A DNA stretch of 62,283 nt, from NCBI GenBank assembly GCA_026393675.1, contig JAPKZQ010000002.1:1-62283 (forward strand), given 5' to 3'. The translations under genes and the position numbers were made by a program. Shown piece after piece: positions 26,677 through 46,785 of the stretch. Source of the DNA: Acidobacteriota bacterium (GTDB taxonomy: Bacteria; Acidobacteriota; Vicinamibacteria; Vicinamibacterales; JAKQTR01). Positions within the stretch are counted from its first letter, which is position 1, and each line of letters starts with the position of its first letter. The notes beneath the pieces were generated by a model, which saw only the letters and a list, made by a program, of their open reading frames with translations, ran no database searches and was not told where the DNA came from.

Positions 26677-27644
26677 CAGCCCTCCGGCATGAATCGCCCG
26701 GCCGGCGCCGCGGCCTGGCTGGCCTTGACCTGCTCCACAAAGACGTCCTCGAGCGTCGTGCGCAGCGGATTCAGCGAGACGAGGCGGCCGCCCCGATCGC
26801 GAACCGCCGCGATGACGCGCTCAGGCTCGCAGTCCGGTGCGAGATCGACGGTGCATCGGCCATCGGCAATCGGCGCGACGCTGCGAACGGCGGGGCCGAG
26901 CATGCCGAGTGCGGCCGGCTCAATGCCGGCCACCACCAGTTCCCATCCCGCGACCTTGAATGCGAGCATCTCCGACAGGCTGCCCATCGCCACCATCTGC
27001 CCGCCCACCAGAATGCCCACGCGGCTGCAGAGCGTCTCGGCATCCGACAGGATGTGCGAGCTGAAGAACACCGTGCACCCGCGATCGCGGAGGCTCAGGA
27101 TGAGGGCGCGCACGTCACGGCGCCCGATGGGGTCGAGTCCGGACATCGGTTCATCAAGAAACACGACCTCGGGGTCGTTGATCAGGGCCTGCGCGAGTCC
27201 GACACGCTGCAGCATGCCTTTGGAGAACTTCCGCATCGGCAGCCGCCGTTCGCCACCGATGCCCAGGCGGTCGAGCAGATCGCTCACCCGTCTCTGACGT
27301 TCGGGATTCCTGATGCCGAAAAGTCCGGCGAAATACGAGAGCAGTTCCTCGGCCGTCAGGTAGTCGTAGAAGTACGGGGCCTCCGGCAGAAATCCGACGC
27401 GACGCCGCACCTCGAGATCGCCGGCTGGCCGGCCCAGGATCGAGATTCGGCCAGAGGTGGGATAGATGAGCTGCATCAGCAGCTTCAGGGTCGTGGTCTT
27501 GCCGGCGCCGTTCGGGCCGAGGAAACCGAAGACCTCGTTGGCCTCCACGCGCAGCGTGACGCCGTCGAGCGCCCGGTACGGACGCGGGCGCCAGAAGCCG
27601 ACGGCATAGTCCTTGGTGAGACCGTCTGTCTCGATCGCAGCCAT
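26676..27644 (-). CDS. ABC transporter ATPase of the pilus locus (PilH-like)
   Basis: A 322-residue ATPase. Walker A GPNGAGKTTT (residues 44-53), signature FSKGMLQRVGLA (SKGM in place of SGGQ), Walker B VVFLDEPMSGLDP and the switch His in FFSSHILSDAE are all present. A C-terminal domain (about 225-322) is of the kind that follows ABC-2 exporters. It pairs with the permease directly downstream. The place between pilA and pilD matches PilH in myxobacteria. Confidence 0.88.
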   Translation of the reverse strand: MAAIETDGLTKDYAVGFWRPRPYRALDGVTLRVEANEVFGFLGPNGAGKTTTLKLLMQLIYPTSGRISILGRPAGDLEVRRRVGFLPEAPYFYDYLTAEELLSYFAGLFGIRNPERQRRVSDLLDRLGIGGERRLPMRKFSKGMLQRVGLAQALINDPEVVFLDEPMSGLDPIGRRDVRALILSLRDRGCTVFFSSHILSDAETLCSRVGILVGGQMVAMGSLSEMLAFKVAGWELVVAGIEPAALGMLGPAVRSVAPIADGRCTVDLAPDCEPERVIAAVRDRGGRLVSLNPLRTTLEDVFVEQVKASQAAAPAGRFMPEG

Positions 27645-38171: not shown

Positions 38172-38933
38172 ATGAGTGAAGTGCCTACGACCCAGCCTGC
38201 CGTTGTCCAGGCGCCTCCGCCAGGCCAGAGCTTCGTCGCCCGTTTTCTGGGTGTGCTGACGTCCCCGAGAGCCACGTTTGCCGAGGTGGCCGCCAGGCCG
38301 CGGTGGTTCGGCATGCTCGCGGCGCTGGTCATCGTGGGAATCGTGGCGGGCACCGCCCTGATGGCGACCGACTCCGGCCGGCTGGCCGCGCTCGATGCGA
38401 GCCGAAGCGGCATGAAGAGCTTTGGCATCAACCTCCCGCCCGAAGCGGAAGCCGAGATGGAGCGCGGCATCATGGAAGCGCCGCTCTGGCGACTGGGACT
38501 CAACGCGGCGCTCGGACAAGTCACGATGGGCATCCTGCTGCCGCTCATCTTGGCGGGCGTGTTCTTCCTGGTCTTCAACGTCGTGCTGGGGGGCGATGCG
38601 ACCTTCAAGCAGATGTTCGCGACCGTCGTGCACGCCAACCCCGTCATGCTCGTGGGCGTGCTCTTCACAACGCCGCTGATGTACTTCCGCGGGTCGATGA
38701 CAGGGGTCACCAACCTCGGGGTGTTCCTGCCGATGCTCGATGAGAATTCGTTCCTGGCGAAGTTGCTCGGATCGGTCGATCTGATTCGCGTCTGGTGGGT
38801 CATCGTCCTGGCCACGGGTCTGAGCGTGCTCTACAAGCGCAAGACCGGGCCCATTGCCACAGCGCTGTTTGTGGTCTACGGCATCATTGCCGTCATCTTT
38901 GCTGCGGTCACGGCTGGCCGCGCGGGGGCATAA
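38172..38933 (+). CDS. Yip1-domain membrane protein
   Basis: A 253-residue membrane protein with a hydrophilic N-terminus (residues 1-45) and about five membrane helices spanning 50-250. The pattern FVARFLGVLTSPRATFAEVAARPRW followed by helices is typical of bacterial Yip1-family (YIPF-like) proteins. Role unknown. ATG 38172 has AGGAG in front; 38142 is the less likely longer start. Followed 2 bp later by the HlyD-type adaptor gene, so the two form an operon. Confidence 0.8.
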   Translation: MSEVPTTQPAVVQAPPPGQSFVARFLGVLTSPRATFAEVAARPRWFGMLAALVIVGIVAGTALMATDSGRLAALDASRSGMKSFGINLPPEAEAEMERGIMEAPLWRLGLNAALGQVTMGILLPLILAGVFFLVFNVVLGGDATFKQMFATVVHANPVMLVGVLFTTPLMYFRGSMTGVTNLGVFLPMLDENSFLAKLLGSVDLIRVWWVIVLATGLSVLYKRKTGPIATALFVVYGIIAVIFAAVTAGRAGA

Positions 38934-38935
38934 GC

Positions 38936-40270
38936 GTGAATCGCAAGAAGATCATCATCGGCATCCTCATCCTCCTGCTGGGCACCGCGCTGGTTGGGGC
39001 CAACCTCTATTTCAAGCGCGAAACCGGGCTCAGCGTGCAAGTGGAAAAGATCCAGAAGCGGAACCTCGAGGCGATTGTCTCGGCCTCGGGCAAGGTGCGG
39101 GCCAAGACGACAGTGAATATCAGCGCCAACACCATGGGCCGTGTCACCAAGCTGGCGGTTGAGGAAGGCGCCCGCGTCAAGGCCGGTCAGTTCCTGATGG
39201 AGATCGACCCGCGGCAGCTCCGCACCCAGGTCGAGCGCGGCGACGCGGGCCTGTCGGCCCAGCGCACAGCGGTCGAGCAGGCGAAGACGTCCCTCGAGTC
39301 TTCGAAGCTCCAGCTGAGCCTCGCAAAGGACAACCTGAAGCGCCAGCAGGACCTCTGGAAGGAACAGCTGACGACCAAGCAGGAACTCGATCGCGCCGTC
39401 AACGACGTGCAACTACGAGAGCGTGACGTCGAGGCGCGTCAGTCGGGGATTACCTCGGAAACGACGCGCATCCGGCAGACGCAGGCGGACCTCGAGAATG
39501 CAAGGTATAACCTGAGTCAAGTGACCATCGACTCGCCGATTGACGGGATCATCACGCGCCGCAACATCGAACTGGGCGAGATGGTCATGATTGGCACGAT
39601 GAACAACGCCGGCACGGTGCTGCTCACCGTGGCGGACATGTCGGTCATCGAAGCCGAGCTGGAAGTGGACGAGACCGACATCCCGAACGTGAAGATCGGG
39701 CAGAAGGTCCAGATCAGCATTGACGCGATTCCCGACAAGAAATTCCCGGCAAAGGTGACTGAGGTCGGCAACAGCCCGATCCAGACGACGGCGTCGGCCA
39801 GTTCGCAGGCCATCAACTTCAAGGTCGTGGTCACCGTCGACGGTCAGATCCCGGAGGTCCGACCGGGCTTCACCTGCACCGCCGACATCACGACGGCGAC
39901 CCGGAAGGACGTGCTGGCGATGCCCATCCAGGCGACCACGGTGCGGGAGCTCGTCTACGACGACAAGGGCAACATCGTGAAGCCGCCGGCGCCAGATCCG
40001 AAAACCGGCCGACCCGCGACAGCGGCGGCGCTTGCGGCGGCGGCCGAGCTGAAGCCGGGCCAGACGAAGAAGGAAACCGAGGGCGTGTTTATCGCGAAGG
40101 CCGGGAAGGTCGAATTCGTGCCCATCAAGACGGGCATCGCCGGCGAGAAGTACTTCGAGGTGCTCTCCGGGCTGAAGGACGGCGACGAGGTCATCACCGG
40201 GCCGTTCAGCGCGGTGCGCGAGCTGAAGGACGGCGTCGTGGTCAAGATCGACACCACGGTGAAGAAGTAG
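38936..40270 (+). CDS. HlyD/MacA-type periplasmic adaptor
   Basis: A 444-residue efflux adaptor. Signal-anchor helix (residues 5-23), barrel-sandwich hybrid domain beginning EKIQKRNLEAIVSASGKVR, a coiled-coil hairpin (about 85-185), then beta-barrel and membrane-proximal domains. An Ala-rich low-complexity insert (ATAAALAAAAELKPG) sits near residue 365. GTG 38936 is chosen; GGGGG lies 8 bases before. It should link the inner-membrane permeases encoded downstream to an outer-membrane exit. Confidence 0.88.
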   Translation: MNRKKIIIGILILLLGTALVGANLYFKRETGLSVQVEKIQKRNLEAIVSASGKVRAKTTVNISANTMGRVTKLAVEEGARVKAGQFLMEIDPRQLRTQVERGDAGLSAQRTAVEQAKTSLESSKLQLSLAKDNLKRQQDLWKEQLTTKQELDRAVNDVQLRERDVEARQSGITSETTRIRQTQADLENARYNLSQVTIDSPIDGIITRRNIELGEMVMIGTMNNAGTVLLTVADMSVIEAELEVDETDIPNVKIGQKVQISIDAIPDKKFPAKVTEVGNSPIQTTASASSQAINFKVVVTVDGQIPEVRPGFTCTADITTATRKDVLAMPIQATTVRELVYDDKGNIVKPPAPDPKTGRPATAAALAAAAELKPGQTKKETEGVFIAKAGKVEFVPIKTGIAGEKYFEVLSGLKDGDEVITGPFSAVRELKDGVVVKIDTTVKK

Positions 40271-40274
40271 CGTC

Positions 40275-41498
40275 ATGGGCCGTATCATCGAAGGCGTCGC
40301 GATCGCGCTCCGGGCGATCTGGGGGAGCAAGCTGCGCTCGTTCATGAGCGTGCTCGGCAATATCGTGGCCGTGACATCGATCATCGCCGTCGTCTCCCTC
40401 ATCCAGGGGTTGAACGCGAAGGTCACCGAAGCCATCGTCTCCGATGTGGGAGCCGACACGTTCACGGTCGACCGCTACGGGCTGACGCGAAGCGAGGAAG
40501 ACTTCGAAAAGGTGCGGAGCAATCCCCGGCTCACGATGCAGGATGCCGAGGCGATCCGGCGCTATAGTCCCTTAATCCGATCGGTGATGGCCGCGAGCGA
40601 GACCTCGGGCCAGGTGTCCTATAAGGACCACCTGCTTGAGAGCGTCACGATCCGGGGCGTGTCGGCGGAGTACATCAACTTCTCGTCTTACAACGCCGAG
40701 CGTGGCCGCCTGATCAGTCCGAGCGAGGTCGACCGCAACCGCAACGTGGTGCTCCTGGGCTGGGGCACGGCGGATCGCCTGTTCGGAGAACGCAACCCGC
40801 TGGACCAGAGCATCAAGATCCAGGGCATCCACTACCGGGTGATTGGTGTCAACGAAAAGAAGGGGGCCATCTTCGGGCAGTCCCAGGACGAGTTCGCGCT
40901 GATTCCGCTCGGCGCGTTCCAGAAGATCTTCGGCTCGCGCCGGAGCATCCAGCTGAATGTGAAGCCCATTCACCCGTCGCTCGTGGACGAAGCGATGAAC
41001 GACGCGACGATTGCCCTGCGCATCGAGCGCCGACTCAAGCCGAAGCAGCGGGACAATTTCGGCATGTTCACAGCCGAATCGATCCTGGCCATCTACCGAA
41101 CGGCGACCGCCGGCATCTTCGCGGTGCTGATTGGCGTGGTCGCCCTGTCGCTCGTCGTGGGCGGCATCGTCATCATGAACATCATGCTGATGGTGGTGAC
41201 GGAGCGCACCTTCGAGATCGGCCTGCGGAAGGCCCTGGGCGCGAAGCGGCGGGACATCATGCTGCAGGTGCTCGCCGAGTCGGTGACGCTGTCGGTCGCC
41301 GGCGGCATCGTCGGCACGTCGCTCGGATTCCTGCTGGCGCTGGCGATCGCGAAGCTGAGCCCGCTGCCGGCCGCGGTGCAGATGTGGTCGGTGGTCCTGG
41401 GCATCGGGATCACGGCGGTTGTCGGCCTGGTCTTTGGTGTGTATCCGGCGATGCGGGCGGCCAAGCTCGACCCGATCGAGGCGTTGAGGAAAGAGTAA
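40275..41498 (+). CDS. MacB/FtsX-type ABC permease A
   Basis: A 407-residue permease: one N-terminal membrane helix (about residues 20-40), a large periplasmic MacB_PCD domain (45-260) and three C-terminal helices (275-405) with the conserved GGIVIMNIMLMVVTERTFEIGLRKALGAKRRDI block. It follows the adaptor gene by 4 bp. The end overlaps the start of permease B (TAATG). Codons at 41132-41143 contain the 12-base word TGGCGTGGTCGC shared with two spacers downstream. Confidence 0.9.
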   Translation: MGRIIEGVAIALRAIWGSKLRSFMSVLGNIVAVTSIIAVVSLIQGLNAKVTEAIVSDVGADTFTVDRYGLTRSEEDFEKVRSNPRLTMQDAEAIRRYSPLIRSVMAASETSGQVSYKDHLLESVTIRGVSAEYINFSSYNAERGRLISPSEVDRNRNVVLLGWGTADRLFGERNPLDQSIKIQGIHYRVIGVNEKKGAIFGQSQDEFALIPLGAFQKIFGSRRSIQLNVKPIHPSLVDEAMNDATIALRIERRLKPKQRDNFGMFTAESILAIYRTATAGIFAVLIGVVALSLVVGGIVIMNIMLMVVTERTFEIGLRKALGAKRRDIMLQVLAESVTLSVAGGIVGTSLGFLLALAIAKLSPLPAAVQMWSVVLGIGITAVVGLVFGVYPAMRAAKLDPIEALRKE

Positions 41499-42811
41499 TG
41501 GTGATGCGCTTCGCGCTCCTCTCGGACGTCATCGTGATGGCGTACGACACGCTGCGCGCCAACAAGATGCGGTCGGCGTTGACGGTGCTGGGCGTGGTGA
41601 TCGGCATCACGGCGATTGTCGGCATGACCTCGATCATCCGTGGCTTCGACGAATCGTTGCGCGACTCGATCCGCCAGCTCGGGCCGGACACGCTCTTTGT
41701 CGCGAAGTTCAGCGGCTTGAGTTTCGCCTCCGGCAAGGAATTCAAGGACCTCATCAAGCGCCCGGTGCTCACGGTGGCCGACGCGCGTGCCATCGAGCGC
41801 GACGCGCCGTCGGCTGGCAAGGTGGACGTGTGGCTTGGCGCCTGGGGCGTAGGCACGAGGGAGCGCGCCTACTACAAGGGTGAGAAGACCAAGCAGCTCG
41901 CCATTATCGGCGTGTCGGAGAATTACGCCGAGGTCAACTACCTGAAGATCGCCGGTGGGCGGTTCTTCGTCGGGGCCGAGGTCGAGCACCGGCGCAATCT
42001 CGCTGTCCTTGGGGATTCGCCCTCCAAGGCCCTGTTTCCAAATGTCGACCCGGTCGGCAAACTGATTCGCATCGCCGGGGACGAGTACGAAGTGATCGGC
42101 TTCATTGCGCCGCGTCCGAGCGTCGGCGGTCTCGGCGGGGGCCAGGACGACTTCATCGTCATTCCGTTCACGACTTATCAGAAACAGTTCGGGTGGCGGA
42201 GGATGTCGGGTAACATCCACGCGGGCGGGACATCGACCAACGCCAACGCCTTCAAGAGCGCGATGATTGCCGTTGTGCCGGCCGAAGGCGCCACGCGCGA
42301 CCAGGCGATGGCCGAGGTGGAACAGGTCATGCGCATCCGGCACGGCCTGAAGCTCGAACAGCCGGACGACTTCGACCTCATCACGCAGGACGCGGCTCTG
42401 AAGATGTGGGACCAGATTTCTGGCGCGACCTTCATCGGCCTCGTGGTCATTTCGTCGATCGCGCTGATGGTGGGCGGCATTGGCGTCATGGCCATCATGA
42501 TGATCTCAGTCACTGAGCGGACCCGCGAAATTGGCGTCCGCAAGGCCCTCGGGGCCCGCCGCCGCGAGATCCTCTGGCAGTTCCTGTTTGAAGCCGTCTT
42601 CCTGACGTCGCTTGGGGGCATCCTCGGCGTCGTCATGGGCGCCTCGATTGGCATGGGCGTGCATTACTTTACCGGCTTCCCGGTGTCGCTCCCCTGGTGG
42701 AGCTTTGCCCTCGGCCTCGGCTTCTCGGGTGGCGTCGGCATCTTCTTTGGCCTGGTGCCGGCGGTCCGCGCCTCGCGTCTGGACCCGATCGAGGCGCTGC
42801 GGTACGAGTAG
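41498..42811 (+). CDS. MacB/FtsX-type ABC permease B
   Basis: A 437-residue permease with the same four-helix plan as permease A: MacB_PCD domain and C-terminal helices with GGIGVMAIMMISVTERTREIG. It starts at ATG 41498 (overlapping permease A) or ATG 41504. It is a close paralogue of permease C at 43060 (roughly 85% identical by eye). No ATP-binding protein is encoded in this cluster, so the ATPase must come from elsewhere. Confidence 0.9.
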   Translation: MVMRFALLSDVIVMAYDTLRANKMRSALTVLGVVIGITAIVGMTSIIRGFDESLRDSIRQLGPDTLFVAKFSGLSFASGKEFKDLIKRPVLTVADARAIERDAPSAGKVDVWLGAWGVGTRERAYYKGEKTKQLAIIGVSENYAEVNYLKIAGGRFFVGAEVEHRRNLAVLGDSPSKALFPNVDPVGKLIRIAGDEYEVIGFIAPRPSVGGLGGGQDDFIVIPFTTYQKQFGWRRMSGNIHAGGTSTNANAFKSAMIAVVPAEGATRDQAMAEVEQVMRIRHGLKLEQPDDFDLITQDAALKMWDQISGATFIGLVVISSIALMVGGIGVMAIMMISVTERTREIGVRKALGARRREILWQFLFEAVFLTSLGGILGVVMGASIGMGVHYFTGFPVSLPWWSFALGLGFSGGVGIFFGLVPAVRASRLDPIEALRYE

Positions 42812-42885
42812 GGGCGCGATTTATCCGCCTTCGCGTGAAGCTTCGGCGGACCGCCGTAGCCTTGGCGGAGGTGGTCGCGTCCGAG

Positions 42886-42955
42886 AAGTAGCAAGTAGCA
42901 AGAAGCAAGAATGGGAGGGCGTTCCATCCCGAATCCCGCTATCCCCGATCCCTCA
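42886..42955. repeat. Period-7 tandem repeats in the spacer after permease B
   Basis: AAGTAGC, AAGTAGC, AAGAAGC, AAGAATG follow in register from 42886. Then a run of ATCCCGA/ATCCCGC/TATCCCC/GATCCC units occurs at about 42926-42953. The same two arrays recur in the same order in the spacer after permease C. Confidence 0.7.
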
Positions 42956-42976
42956 CGCCTAGTAGAATAGGCTCCC

Positions 42977-43056
42977 TGGCGTGGTCGCCCTGTCACTCGT
43001 CGTGTGTGGCATTGTCATCATGAATCTCATGCCGAAGCCTTGAAGAAAGAGGCGTC
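42977..43056 (+). pseudogene. Fossil tail of a second permease A copy
   Basis: Bases 42977-43028 match permease A 41132-41183 closely (TGGCGTGGTCGCCCTGTC start; GVVALSLVV codons). Bases 43029-43056 match the end of permease A (the EALRKE region and junction with permease B). About 285 bp between the two matches are missing. It is a decayed piece of a duplicated permease A gene. Confidence 0.75.
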
Positions 43057-44367
43057 GTGATGCGCTTCGCGCTCCTCTCGGACGTCGTCGTGATGGCGTA
43101 CGACACGCTGCGCGCCAACAAGATGCGGTCGGCGTTGACGGTGCTCGGCGTCGTGATTGGCATCACCGCGATTGTCGGCATGACGTCGCTCATCCGGGGC
43201 TTCGACGAATCGGTGCGCGACTCGATCCGGCAGCTCGGGCCGGACACGGTGATTGTCATGAAGTTCAGCGGCCTGAGCATGATGTCTGGCAAGGAATTCA
43301 AGGATCTCATCAAGCGCCCGGTGCTGACCGTGGCCGACGCGAATGCGATCGAGCGCGATGCCCCATCGGTCGGCCGCGTCGACGTGATGCTGGGCAACTG
43401 GATAGCCGTCACACGGGAGCGCGTTTTCTACAAGGGCACGAAGACCAAGCAACTCACCATCTTCGGGGCGTCTGAGAACTACGCCGTGGTCAACGCCCTC
43501 AAGCTGCCGGGTGGGCGGTTCTTCCTCCAGGCCGAGGTCGAGCACCGGCGCACTCTCGCTGTCCTTGGGGATTCGCCCGCCAAGGCCCTCTTTCCGAATG
43601 TCGACCCGGTCGGCAAGCTGATTCGCATCGGCAGGGAGGAGTACGAAGTCATCGGCTACGTCGCGCCGCGTCCGAGCGTCGGCGGTCCGGGTGGTGGCCA
43701 GGACGACTTCGTCGTCATTCCGTACACGACCTATCAGAAGCAGTTCGGGTGGCGGAGTGCGTCGGGCAACATTCACGCGGGCGGGACAGCCACCAACGCC
43801 AACGCATTCAAGAGCGCCATGATTGCCGTCGTGCCAGACGAAGGGGCCACGCGCGACCAGGCGATGACCGAGGTGGAGCAGGTCATGCGCATCCGGCACG
43901 GCCTGAAACTCGAGCAGCAGAACGACTTCGAAATCGTCACAGCGGACGCGGCCCTGAAGATGTACGGACAGGTCACCGGCGCCATCTTCATCGGCCTGGT
44001 GGTGATCTCGTCGATCGCGCTGATGGTGGGCGGCATTGGCGTCATGGCCATCATGATGATCTCGGTGACCGAGCGCACCCGCGAGATTGGCGTCCGCAAG
44101 GCCCTCGGGGCCCGCCGTCGCGAGATCCTCTGGCAGTTCCTGTTCGAAGCGGTCTTCCTGACATCGGTCGGGGGCATCCTCGGTGTCGTGATGGGCAGCG
44201 TGATTGGCATGAGCGTGCACTTCCTCGCCGGCTTCCCGGTGTCGATGCCCTGGTGGAGCTTTGCAATCGGCCTCGGCTTCTCGGGCGGCGTCGGCATTTT
44301 CTTCGGCCTGGTGCCGGCCATCCGGGCCTCACGCCTGGACCCGATCGAGGCGCTGCGGTACGAGTAG
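43057..44367 (+). CDS. MacB/FtsX-type ABC permease C
   Basis: A 436-residue permease, a recent tandem copy of permease B with the same MMRFALLSD(V/I)VMAYDTLRANKMR start and C-terminal GGIGVMAIMMISVTERTREIG helices. Start GTG 43057 or ATG 43060, preceded by GAAAGAGG from the fossil. Differences from B are spread along the periplasmic domain, which fits a new substrate or ordinary drift. The preceding fossil tail shows how it arose. Confidence 0.9.
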   Translation: MMRFALLSDVVVMAYDTLRANKMRSALTVLGVVIGITAIVGMTSLIRGFDESVRDSIRQLGPDTVIVMKFSGLSMMSGKEFKDLIKRPVLTVADANAIERDAPSVGRVDVMLGNWIAVTRERVFYKGTKTKQLTIFGASENYAVVNALKLPGGRFFLQAEVEHRRTLAVLGDSPAKALFPNVDPVGKLIRIGREEYEVIGYVAPRPSVGGPGGGQDDFVVIPYTTYQKQFGWRSASGNIHAGGTATNANAFKSAMIAVVPDEGATRDQAMTEVEQVMRIRHGLKLEQQNDFEIVTADAALKMYGQVTGAIFIGLVVISSIALMVGGIGVMAIMMISVTERTREIGVRKALGARRREILWQFLFEAVFLTSVGGILGVVMGSVIGMSVHFLAGFPVSMPWWSFAIGLGFSGGVGIFFGLVPAIRASRLDPIEALRYE

Positions 44368-44407
44368 AGGGACGGGGGCGCGATTGATTGCGCCCGCGCC
44401 GCAATCA

Positions 44408-44640
44408 GTAGACGGTAGACGGTAGACGGTAGGAGACAAGAACAGAAGCAAGTAGCAAGTAGCAAGTAGCAAGAAGGGGAGAAGGGGAGAATGCCCCAGT
44501 CCCCAGCACCGAACTCCGAATCCCGAATCCAGACTCCCGAATCCCGCTTGCCCGCCGAAGCCCGACGAAGCTCGAAGAGCGGAGTCGGGCGAAGGCGGGA
44601 ATCTCTCTATCCCCAATCCCCCAGCGCCTAGTAGAATGTG
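44408..44640. repeat. Spacer with three kinds of period-7 array
   Basis: GTAGACG three times from 44408; AAGTAGC three times from 44450; then CCCCAGT CCCCAG near 44494 and GAATCCC units at about 44517-44548. CTAGTAGAAT near 44630 closes the block, as in the spacer before permease C. About 270 bp of this gap before EF-G2 hold no gene. Confidence 0.7.
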
Positions 44641-44685
44641 ATTTTTGGCGTGGTCGCATTGACGGCAGAAAGAGGGCTATCCGAT

Positions 44686-46785
44686 ATGAAGGTTTATGAC
44701 GCCGCAAATATCAGGAATGTCGCAATTGTCGGACACAGCGGATCAGGCAAAACCCAGTTGACGTCCGCCATCCTGTTCGACGCCGGCATGGTCAACCGGC
44801 TGGGCAAGGTGGACGAAGGCAACACGGTGACCGACTTCGACGAGGAAGAGATCGCCCGCAAGCACACCTTGTCGGCCAGCATCTGTTACGCCGAGTGGAA
44901 CAAGACCAAGGTCAACATCATCGATACGCCGGGCTTCGGGAACTTCTTCAGCGATGCCCGGGCCGCGCTGGGCGTTGCCGACGGCGCGCTGGTGGTCATT
45001 GACGCGGTCTCTGGCGTTGAAGTGCAGACCGAGAAGGTGTGGGAAGAAGCTGAGGCGCAGGAACTGCCGCGTTTGGTGGTGCTCAGCCGCATGGACCGCG
45101 AGCGCGCCAGCCTGAACCGGACGCTCGAGGCCATCCAGGCGTCGTTTGGCCGCATGGTCGTCCCGATCCAGATGCCGATCGGCGAGGAGAAGAACTTCAA
45201 GGGCGTGGTCGACCTGATCGGCATGAAGGCGTACACCTTCGCCGCCGACGGCTCCGGCAGGATGACCGAGGACGCCGTGCCAGCCGACCTCGTTGATGCG
45301 GTGACATCGGCGCGCGACGCGCTGGTCGAGATCGTCGCGGAAGCTGACGACACCCTGATGGAGAAGTTCTTCGAATCTGGCACGCTCACGCAGGACGAAT
45401 TGGTCGGCGGGCTGCGCCGGGCCGTTGTCGGACGCAAGATGTTTCCGCTGGTCTGCACCTCGGCCCTCGCGAACATCGGCATCCAGCCGGCCCTTGACGC
45501 GGTACTCGCCTACTTGCCGGCGGCATCCGAGCGCACGGTGAAAGCGACCGACAAGGCGGGCGCGGACACCCCCATCAAGGTCTCCGACAGCGGGCCGCTC
45601 TCCGTGTTCGTCTGGAAGACCATCGCCGACCCGTTCGCCGGGCGCATCAGCTTGTTCCGAGTCGTCCGCGGTTCGCTCAAGGCCGACTCGACCGTGCAGA
45701 ACCTGTCGCATGAATCGCCCGAGCGCATCGGTCACCTGATGTTGCTACAGGGCAAGACACCGACGGATGTCCCGGAGATCAAGGCTGGCGACATCGGTGC
45801 GGTGGCCAAGCTCAAGGACACGCAGACCAACCACACGATTGGCGACAAGGACGGCGGCGCGCGCTTCAATCCGCTGGTCTTCCCAGACCCGGTGCTCTCG
45901 TACGCGATCGAGCCGAAGACCCGCGGCGACGAGGACAAGATCAGCACGGCGCTCCACCGCATCCTCGAAGAGGATCCGACCGTCCGGTACAGCCGCGATC
46001 AGCAGACCAACGAGCTGCTGCTCGCCGGGCAAGGCCAGATGCACATCGAAGTGACGGTCGCGAAGATGAAGCGCCGGTTCGCCGTCGAGGTCAACCTGAA
46101 GCTGCCGCGCATACCCTACCGGGAGACGATCACGCTGGCGACCGAGGCGCACGGCCGGCACAAGAAGCAGACCGGCGGCCACGGCCAGTTCGGCGACTGC
46201 ACGATTAAGATGGAACCGCTCGCACGTGGCTCCGACTTCGAATTCGTCGACAAGATCTTCGGCGGGTCGATCCCGCTGAACTTCCGGCCGGCGGTTGAAA
46301 AGGGCATCCAGGACACCCGCGTGCGTGGGTACCTCGCCGGCTTCCCGGTGCTCGATTTCCGGGTCACCCTGATCGACGGCAAGTTCCACCCGGTCGATTC
46401 CAACGAGCTCTCGTTCAGGATGGCGGGCCGGCTGGCGTTCAAGGATGGCATGACTCGCGCCAGGCCCACCATCCTCGAGCCGGTCATGAACGTCGAGGTG
46501 TACGTGCCGAGCGACTTTGCCGGGGACATCATGGGCGACATCAACAGCCGGCGCGGGCACGTATCGGGCATGGACACGCGCGGGATCACCACGGTCGTCA
46601 AGGCGCAGGTGCCGATGTCCGAAATGCTCACCTATGAGCAGACACTGACGTCCACCACCGGCGGCCGCGGCACCTACCACATGGAGTATTCACACTACCA
46701 GGAAGTGCCGGCCCACCTGCAGGCGAAGATCATCTCGGCTGCGAAGGCCGAGAAGGGTGAGGCGGCCGAGGAAGAGGAAGAATAG
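44686..46785 (+). CDS. fusA2: EF-G2-like translational GTPase
   Basis: A 699-residue EF-G-like protein. The P-loop is GHSGSGKT (residues 16-23), not the GHIDAGKT of canonical EF-G. Switch II reads DTPGFGNF (80-87), with Phe replacing the catalytic His of DTPGH. All five EF-G domains are present, with LLAGQGQMHIEV in domain III and GRGTYHMEYSHYQEVP in domain V. EF-G2 paralogues are GTPases not essential for bulk translation in the species studied. The gene has AGAGGG eight bases before ATG. It converges on the ribosomal operon. Confidence 0.88.
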   Translation: MKVYDAANIRNVAIVGHSGSGKTQLTSAILFDAGMVNRLGKVDEGNTVTDFDEEEIARKHTLSASICYAEWNKTKVNIIDTPGFGNFFSDARAALGVADGALVVIDAVSGVEVQTEKVWEEAEAQELPRLVVLSRMDRERASLNRTLEAIQASFGRMVVPIQMPIGEEKNFKGVVDLIGMKAYTFAADGSGRMTEDAVPADLVDAVTSARDALVEIVAEADDTLMEKFFESGTLTQDELVGGLRRAVVGRKMFPLVCTSALANIGIQPALDAVLAYLPAASERTVKATDKAGADTPIKVSDSGPLSVFVWKTIADPFAGRISLFRVVRGSLKADSTVQNLSHESPERIGHLMLLQGKTPTDVPEIKAGDIGAVAKLKDTQTNHTIGDKDGGARFNPLVFPDPVLSYAIEPKTRGDEDKISTALHRILEEDPTVRYSRDQQTNELLLAGQGQMHIEVTVAKMKRRFAVEVNLKLPRIPYRETITLATEAHGRHKKQTGGHGQFGDCTIKMEPLARGSDFEFVDKIFGGSIPLNFRPAVEKGIQDTRVRGYLAGFPVLDFRVTLIDGKFHPVDSNELSFRMAGRLAFKDGMTRARPTILEPVMNVEVYVPSDFAGDIMGDINSRRGHVSGMDTRGITTVVKAQVPMSEMLTYEQTLTSTTGGRGTYHMEYSHYQEVPAHLQAKIISAAKAEKGEAAEEEEE

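Follow-up and report, generated by a model that had tools for sequence, protein, structure and literature searches.

How does an exporter locus that carries two permease genes in related genomes come to carry three? The question is raised by an Acidobacteriota genome in which two similar permease genes, here called B and C, follow a third, A, and precede a gene for an elongation factor G-type protein (EF-G2). Coordinates are those of the window, by which we mean the whole stretch of 62,283 nucleotides that was analysed, and the features of the locus lie on its + strand. We suggest, with a probability of roughly 85%, that this arrangement is what a single tandem duplication of ~3.5 kb left behind. 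The duplicated unit would comprise the tail of A, B and the spacer behind B, and the event would have taken place at a short homology and been followed by a 289-bp deletion.

Exporter genes and their layout in the family

The exporter set begins with a gene for a HlyD/MacA-type membrane fusion protein (38933-40270; Pfam PF16576 and PF13437), followed by permease A (40275-41498), which is intact and shares 92% amino acid identity with A of the same-genus genome G001. Permeases B (41504-42811) and C (43057-44367) adjoin each other in direct orientation on the same strand. C is also intact, with 85% amino acid identity to B, and has more amino acid changes than B. EF-G2 (44686-46785) is recognized by the Pfam families GTP_EFTU, EFG_III, EFG_IV and EFG_C.

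PF12704 and PF02687 (MacB_PCD and FtsX) are present in A, B and C. By Pfam, none of the three has a fused ATPase domain, only permease domains being found, and we therefore refer to them as MacB-like permeases and not as MacB. The likeness to the MacB permeases (PDB 5lil, 5gko and 5nik) consists of the MacB periplasmic core domain and the FtsX C-terminal domain, and phmmer matches residues 9-434 of C to MacB with E-values down to 7e-51. The exporter described here differs from MacB, however, in lacking the fused ATPase, in having two or three separate permease genes, and in that no ATPase gene is seen alongside the membrane fusion protein and three permeases of the set (38933-44367). ABC ATPases occur elsewhere in the genome, with 51 PF00005 matches, one of them inside the window at 27144-27569.

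The first-pass annotation of this DNA had predicted that relatives would hold A, B, a spacer and EF-G2 only, and this is the layout seen in the sister genome G001 and in G003, one of three further family members that were compared (G002, G003 and G004). In both G001 and G003, YIP1, HlyD, A, B and EF-G2 lie in a row with a single B. G002 has A-B, with no EF-G2 match in the stretch compared. Exactly one orthologue of B is present in G001, G002 and G003, that is, in three of the four family genomes; at the cut-off applied, G004 has none.

The join-point

The 12-bp word TGGCGTGGTCGC is found as an exact match within permease A (41132-41143), between B and C (42977-42988) and in the EF-G2 leader (44646-44657), where it had been placed by the first-pass annotation, and nowhere else in the window. 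When up to one mismatch is allowed, the window holds six sites against 1.28 expected, a number that none of 100 shuffles reached. Across the 3.25 Mb genome, however, there are 11 exact sites (two for a reversed control), and the word alone was rejected as evidence of a duplication. Because it is not rare in the genome, the case rests on its flanks.

In a genome-wide search with the B-C spacer, positions 42931-42988 matched 44599-44657 in the EF-G2 leader at 81% (E 3e-8), their sole match in the genome, and positions 42977-43035 matched 41132-41190 in permease A at 88% (E 1e-14). The two matches overlap solely in the 12-mer. They confirm the claim that the left flank of the middle 12-mer is EF-G2 leader and its right flank permease A, and they mark this copy as the join-point, with the leader copy as the left-hand source and the copy within A as the right-hand source. 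The word CCTAGTAGAAT, which ends 8 bases 5' of the middle 12-mer, has three sites in 3.25 Mb; two are at the duplication locus, and the third lies shortly upstream of another open frame. One point counts against the duplication scheme: of the 8 bases between the element TAGTAGAAT, described below, and the middle 12-mer, just two are identical to the EF-G2 leader when counted by eye.

A microhomology of 12 bp had been proposed. The 12 bp are identical today, but the homology at the time of the event may have been shorter or interrupted, since several of these bases differ in G001 and/or G003, namely, within A, the first T and, within the EF-G2 leader, GG and the final C. In G001, G002 and G003, permease A has C instead of T at the first position of the word, and the corresponding place in the EF-G2 leader reads TTTGGCGTTCTTCGG in G001 and TTTGGCGTAGTCGGA in G003. 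Given these differing counterparts, part of the 12-bp identity is lineage-specific; it may have been present at the event and enabled it, or it may have grown later by chance. We consider it unlikely that the identity arose because the middle copy later converted the EF-G2 leader. The two share the word over 12 bp only, with different flanks, neither of which was converted, so a conversion tract would need a length of ~12 bp and would have to end at both ends of the 12-mer.

Unequal crossing-over, the mechanism originally put forward, is one of several that leave an identical scar. We give an even chance that the join was made on a single chromosome, through template switching during replication or another short-homology route independent of RecA; this is a variant of the duplication and not an alternative to it. 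The homology of just 12 bp or less points in that direction, and short-homology joins, among them some with borders of 9 bp in an E. coli system, have been described as illegitimate recombination (PMC11111574). Crossing-over between sister copies would nevertheless yield the same product, and the sequence fits either route.

The A-tail remnant and the two spacers

Behind the join-point lies a second A-tail remnant (42977-43056), made up of 56 nt of A, a 289-bp gap and the last ~22 nt of A, with AGAAAGAG before C. Positions 42977-43032 are identical to permease A at 50 of 56 positions, and 43033-43059 share 20 of 27 bases with the end of A and the junction between A and B. The alignment bears out the earlier description of this region as permease A sequence, then the last codons of A, then permease C. 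The loss from the extra A tail, previously put at ~285 bp, is also real, but its size is exactly 289 bp, the stretch 41188-41476 of A being the part that is missing. Since 289 is not divisible by 3, the deletion puts the stub out of frame, with a stop codon at 43041-43043. The AGAAAGAG in the retained end of A is the likely ribosome-binding site for C.

Non-aligning spacers had been named beforehand as a refutation of the duplication. Spacer 1, behind B, and spacer 2, before EF-G2 (44368-44645), do align, with a local score of 54 against a shuffle mean of 18.9 and a shuffle maximum of 41; neither the 1000 shuffles nor any of 854 other stretches of the window reached 54. Nearly all of this signal comes from the last 46 nt, which alone score 51. 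The copy of the EF-G2 upstream region (42931-42988) forms the left side of the join-point and has TAGTAGAAT at 42960-42968, and the corresponding element of spacer 2, which was aligned to the G001 spacer, is at 44629-44637.

Repeats common to both spacers had been offered as further evidence. Such repeats are only partly diagnostic. Other places in the genome match both the AAGTAGC copies and the opening ~75 nt of spacer 1, which makes the repeats weak evidence of duplication, and the dispersed palindromic repeat of spacer 1 (42812-42886), for which the genome has more than 20 similar sites, is not evidence for it. The palindromic element GGGGCGCGATTYATCCGCCTTCGCG... directly after the B stop is a REP-like intergenic repeat of the lineage. 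A palindromic stretch before the CTATCCCC region is common to spacer 2 and the G001 spacer, and spacer 1 is without it; the differences of spacer 1 in this stretch and in the palindromic element are changes later than the duplication. The proposal that one unequal exchange explains every junction holds in outline, with a correction: the 289-bp deletion in the A tail, which the same proposal had included, and the changes in spacer 1 are separate events.

Age and divergence of B and C

B and C share 85.3% amino acid and 87.0% nucleotide identity, with dN 0.089 and dS 0.33. B and the B of G001 share 91.5% amino acid identity (dS 0.64), and C and the B of G001 share 85.7% (dS 0.48). Site patterns favour a grouping of B with C, by 31 against 18 and 15 with G003 as the outgroup and by 28 against 21 and 18 with G002. 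An AU test kept all three topologies, and the tree is a polytomy for B, C and the B of G001.

These values bear on the possibility, which we regard as rather unlikely, that C was present before G001 branched off, or was acquired from a diverged strain, and that recombination between B and C removed it from G001. Such a history would change the date of the event and not its mechanism. It is consistent with the AU test and with the C protein being equally distant from B and from the B of G001. However, the dS between B and C is lower than that of either gene to G001, the site patterns with the G003 outgroup favour B+C, and spacer 1 aligns better with spacer 2 (82.5) than with the G001 spacer (46), all of which argue against it. 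Conversion between B and C could in turn mimic the dS, site and spacer evidence, and could be the source of the uneven identity of B and C along the gene, which ranges from 70% to 97% in 99-nt windows.

Unique amino acid changes are more numerous in C than in B. The ratio is 40 to 15 with G001, which may not be a true outgroup, as the reference (binomial p 0.001), 26 to 14 with G003 (binomial p 0.08) and 21 to 13 with G002. At positions fixed in three family relatives, C has 15 changes and B has 5 (p 0.04).

Permease pairs in more distant relatives

Two full A-B pairs in relatives had likewise been named as a refuting layout, and they are absent from all of the order-level relatives examined. 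Neither a second B nor two A-B pairs occurs in any of the 25 order-level loci (named records). Fifteen of these have B and then EF-G2, with EF-G2 on the other strand in L079 and with L080 and L082 beginning inside B; the stretches of the other ten have no EF-G2 match. Among 16 further loci, the layout is A-B-EF-G2 in 11 and A-B-B-EF-G2 in two (G039 and G029), and three are without an EF-G2 match.

It could be argued that the complete A-B-spacer unit was duplicated first, and that the second A was afterwards shortened, losing its 5' part and subsequently an internal 289 bp. Two consecutive A-B pairs are frequent in distant relatives, being found in 33 of 55 Gemmatimonadota loci, although these double pairs are mostly at 35-45% identity and none of the 55 loci has an EF-G2 match in the stretch. 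We consider this order of events very improbable, given that neither the 25 order-level loci nor the 16 further loci hold a double A-B pair, and that it leaves to chance the fact that the 5' end of the stub is exactly the word shared with the EF-G2 leader. An assembly artefact, in which two strains were joined at a short repeat, is hardly credible: the genome is a draft of 46 contigs, but 12 bp is shorter than the usual assembly word length, the stub has a 289-bp deletion and its own substitutions, and B and C are both intact.

In two genomes from other families of the order, G039 (L141, 3318-5896) and G029 (L142, 3493-6051), a tandem pair of permease B separates A from EF-G2. We rejected the idea that these pairs stem from the same event, as the matched copies are 8 and 28 bp apart and neither a spacer nor an A stub lies between them. 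Their B copies are more diverged, at 74% amino acid identity in G039 and 68% in G029, than B and C are. In a speculative reading, to which we attach little confidence, the doubling of B in these lineages by different joins might reflect selection that repeatedly favoured a second copy.

The EF-G2 upstream element and possible promoter capture

In the window, G001 (L054) and G003 (L058), the element TAGTAGAAT precedes the EF-G2 start at -57/-58; the other EF-G2 leaders compared all lack it. A copy lies upstream of C at -97. The hexamer TAGAAT differs from the -10 consensus by one base. A scan of 42800-44700 for consensus sigma-70 promoters and intrinsic terminators found neither. Genome-wide, TAGTAGAAT is not enriched, and with five sites against five in the control it is unsupported as a general promoter word of the genome.

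We believe that promoter capture by C is likely because the element is conserved. The duplicated piece brings this conserved upstream element with it, so C probably gained its own promoter. It now lies 97 nt downstream of a duplicate of the likely EF-G2 promoter and probably forms a separate transcription unit. The carrying over of the element is a point that the first-pass annotation missed. A GTG at 44638 would also allow a longer EF-G2 frame, which reads through the 12-mer (MIFGVVALTA...; window 44638-44688) in the same frame as the GVVA of permease A. This extension is probably due to chance, given an in-frame TAG in the G003 leader.

Proposed history

We suggest that the duplication started from an A-B-spacer-EF-G2 locus in two sister copies, each with a single B. 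An out-of-register join at a short chance homology would have linked the EF-G2 leader (44646) to the 3' part of permease A (41132), and the product would have been a chromosome with ~3.5 kb extra, made up of the A tail, B and the spacer. The useless A tail would then have lost 289 bp but retained its last ~22 nt, which probably provide the ribosome-binding region for the gene that follows. The two B copies would have remained intact under purifying selection, with C evolving faster, and the copied spacer end would have carried the conserved EF-G2 upstream element, so that a duplicate of the likely EF-G2 promoter came to precede C.

A more speculative extension, to which we attach little confidence, concerns the role of a diverging B copy behind a translation-factor promoter region. 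The A-tail deletion might have been selected for bringing the promoter near C, and C might serve as an alternative half-transporter under growth-linked control, pairing with A in place of B and extending the exporter to a second range of substrates.

Precedents and significance

Short-homology duplications and promoter captures are already known in bacteria, and duplication scars tend to decay or to be rewritten by recombination between the copies. A literature search combining Acidobacteria, MacB, permease and paralog found no paper. A laboratory E. coli system is described in which tandem duplications have 9-bp borders and capture promoters, and the same account refers to Anderson and Roth 1978 for Salmonella his-gene fusions (PMC11111574). 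The likeness to those short-homology duplications lies in the short shared word at the join and in the second copy coming under a new upstream region. In contrast, the event described here is old, the copies have diverged, the join has been trimmed by a deletion, and the promoter capture is putative. In Streptococcus pneumoniae M184, duplication of the ABC exporter locus patAB is likewise reported to place a second copy behind another promoter (PMC4432121), but that duplication is 9.2 kb, semistable and present in a laboratory mutant with a known resistance phenotype, whereas the one described here is ~3.5 kb with diverged copies.

The scar at this locus preserves both parental sites, the join-point and the trimming deletion, together with the single-copy state in a sister genome. 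The route itself is an ordinary one, and the accepted picture of how such duplications arise stays unchanged. The locus is a natural counterpart of laboratory short-homology duplications with promoter capture, the capture being putative here, and it provides a concrete, testable example of an exporter acquiring a third permease.
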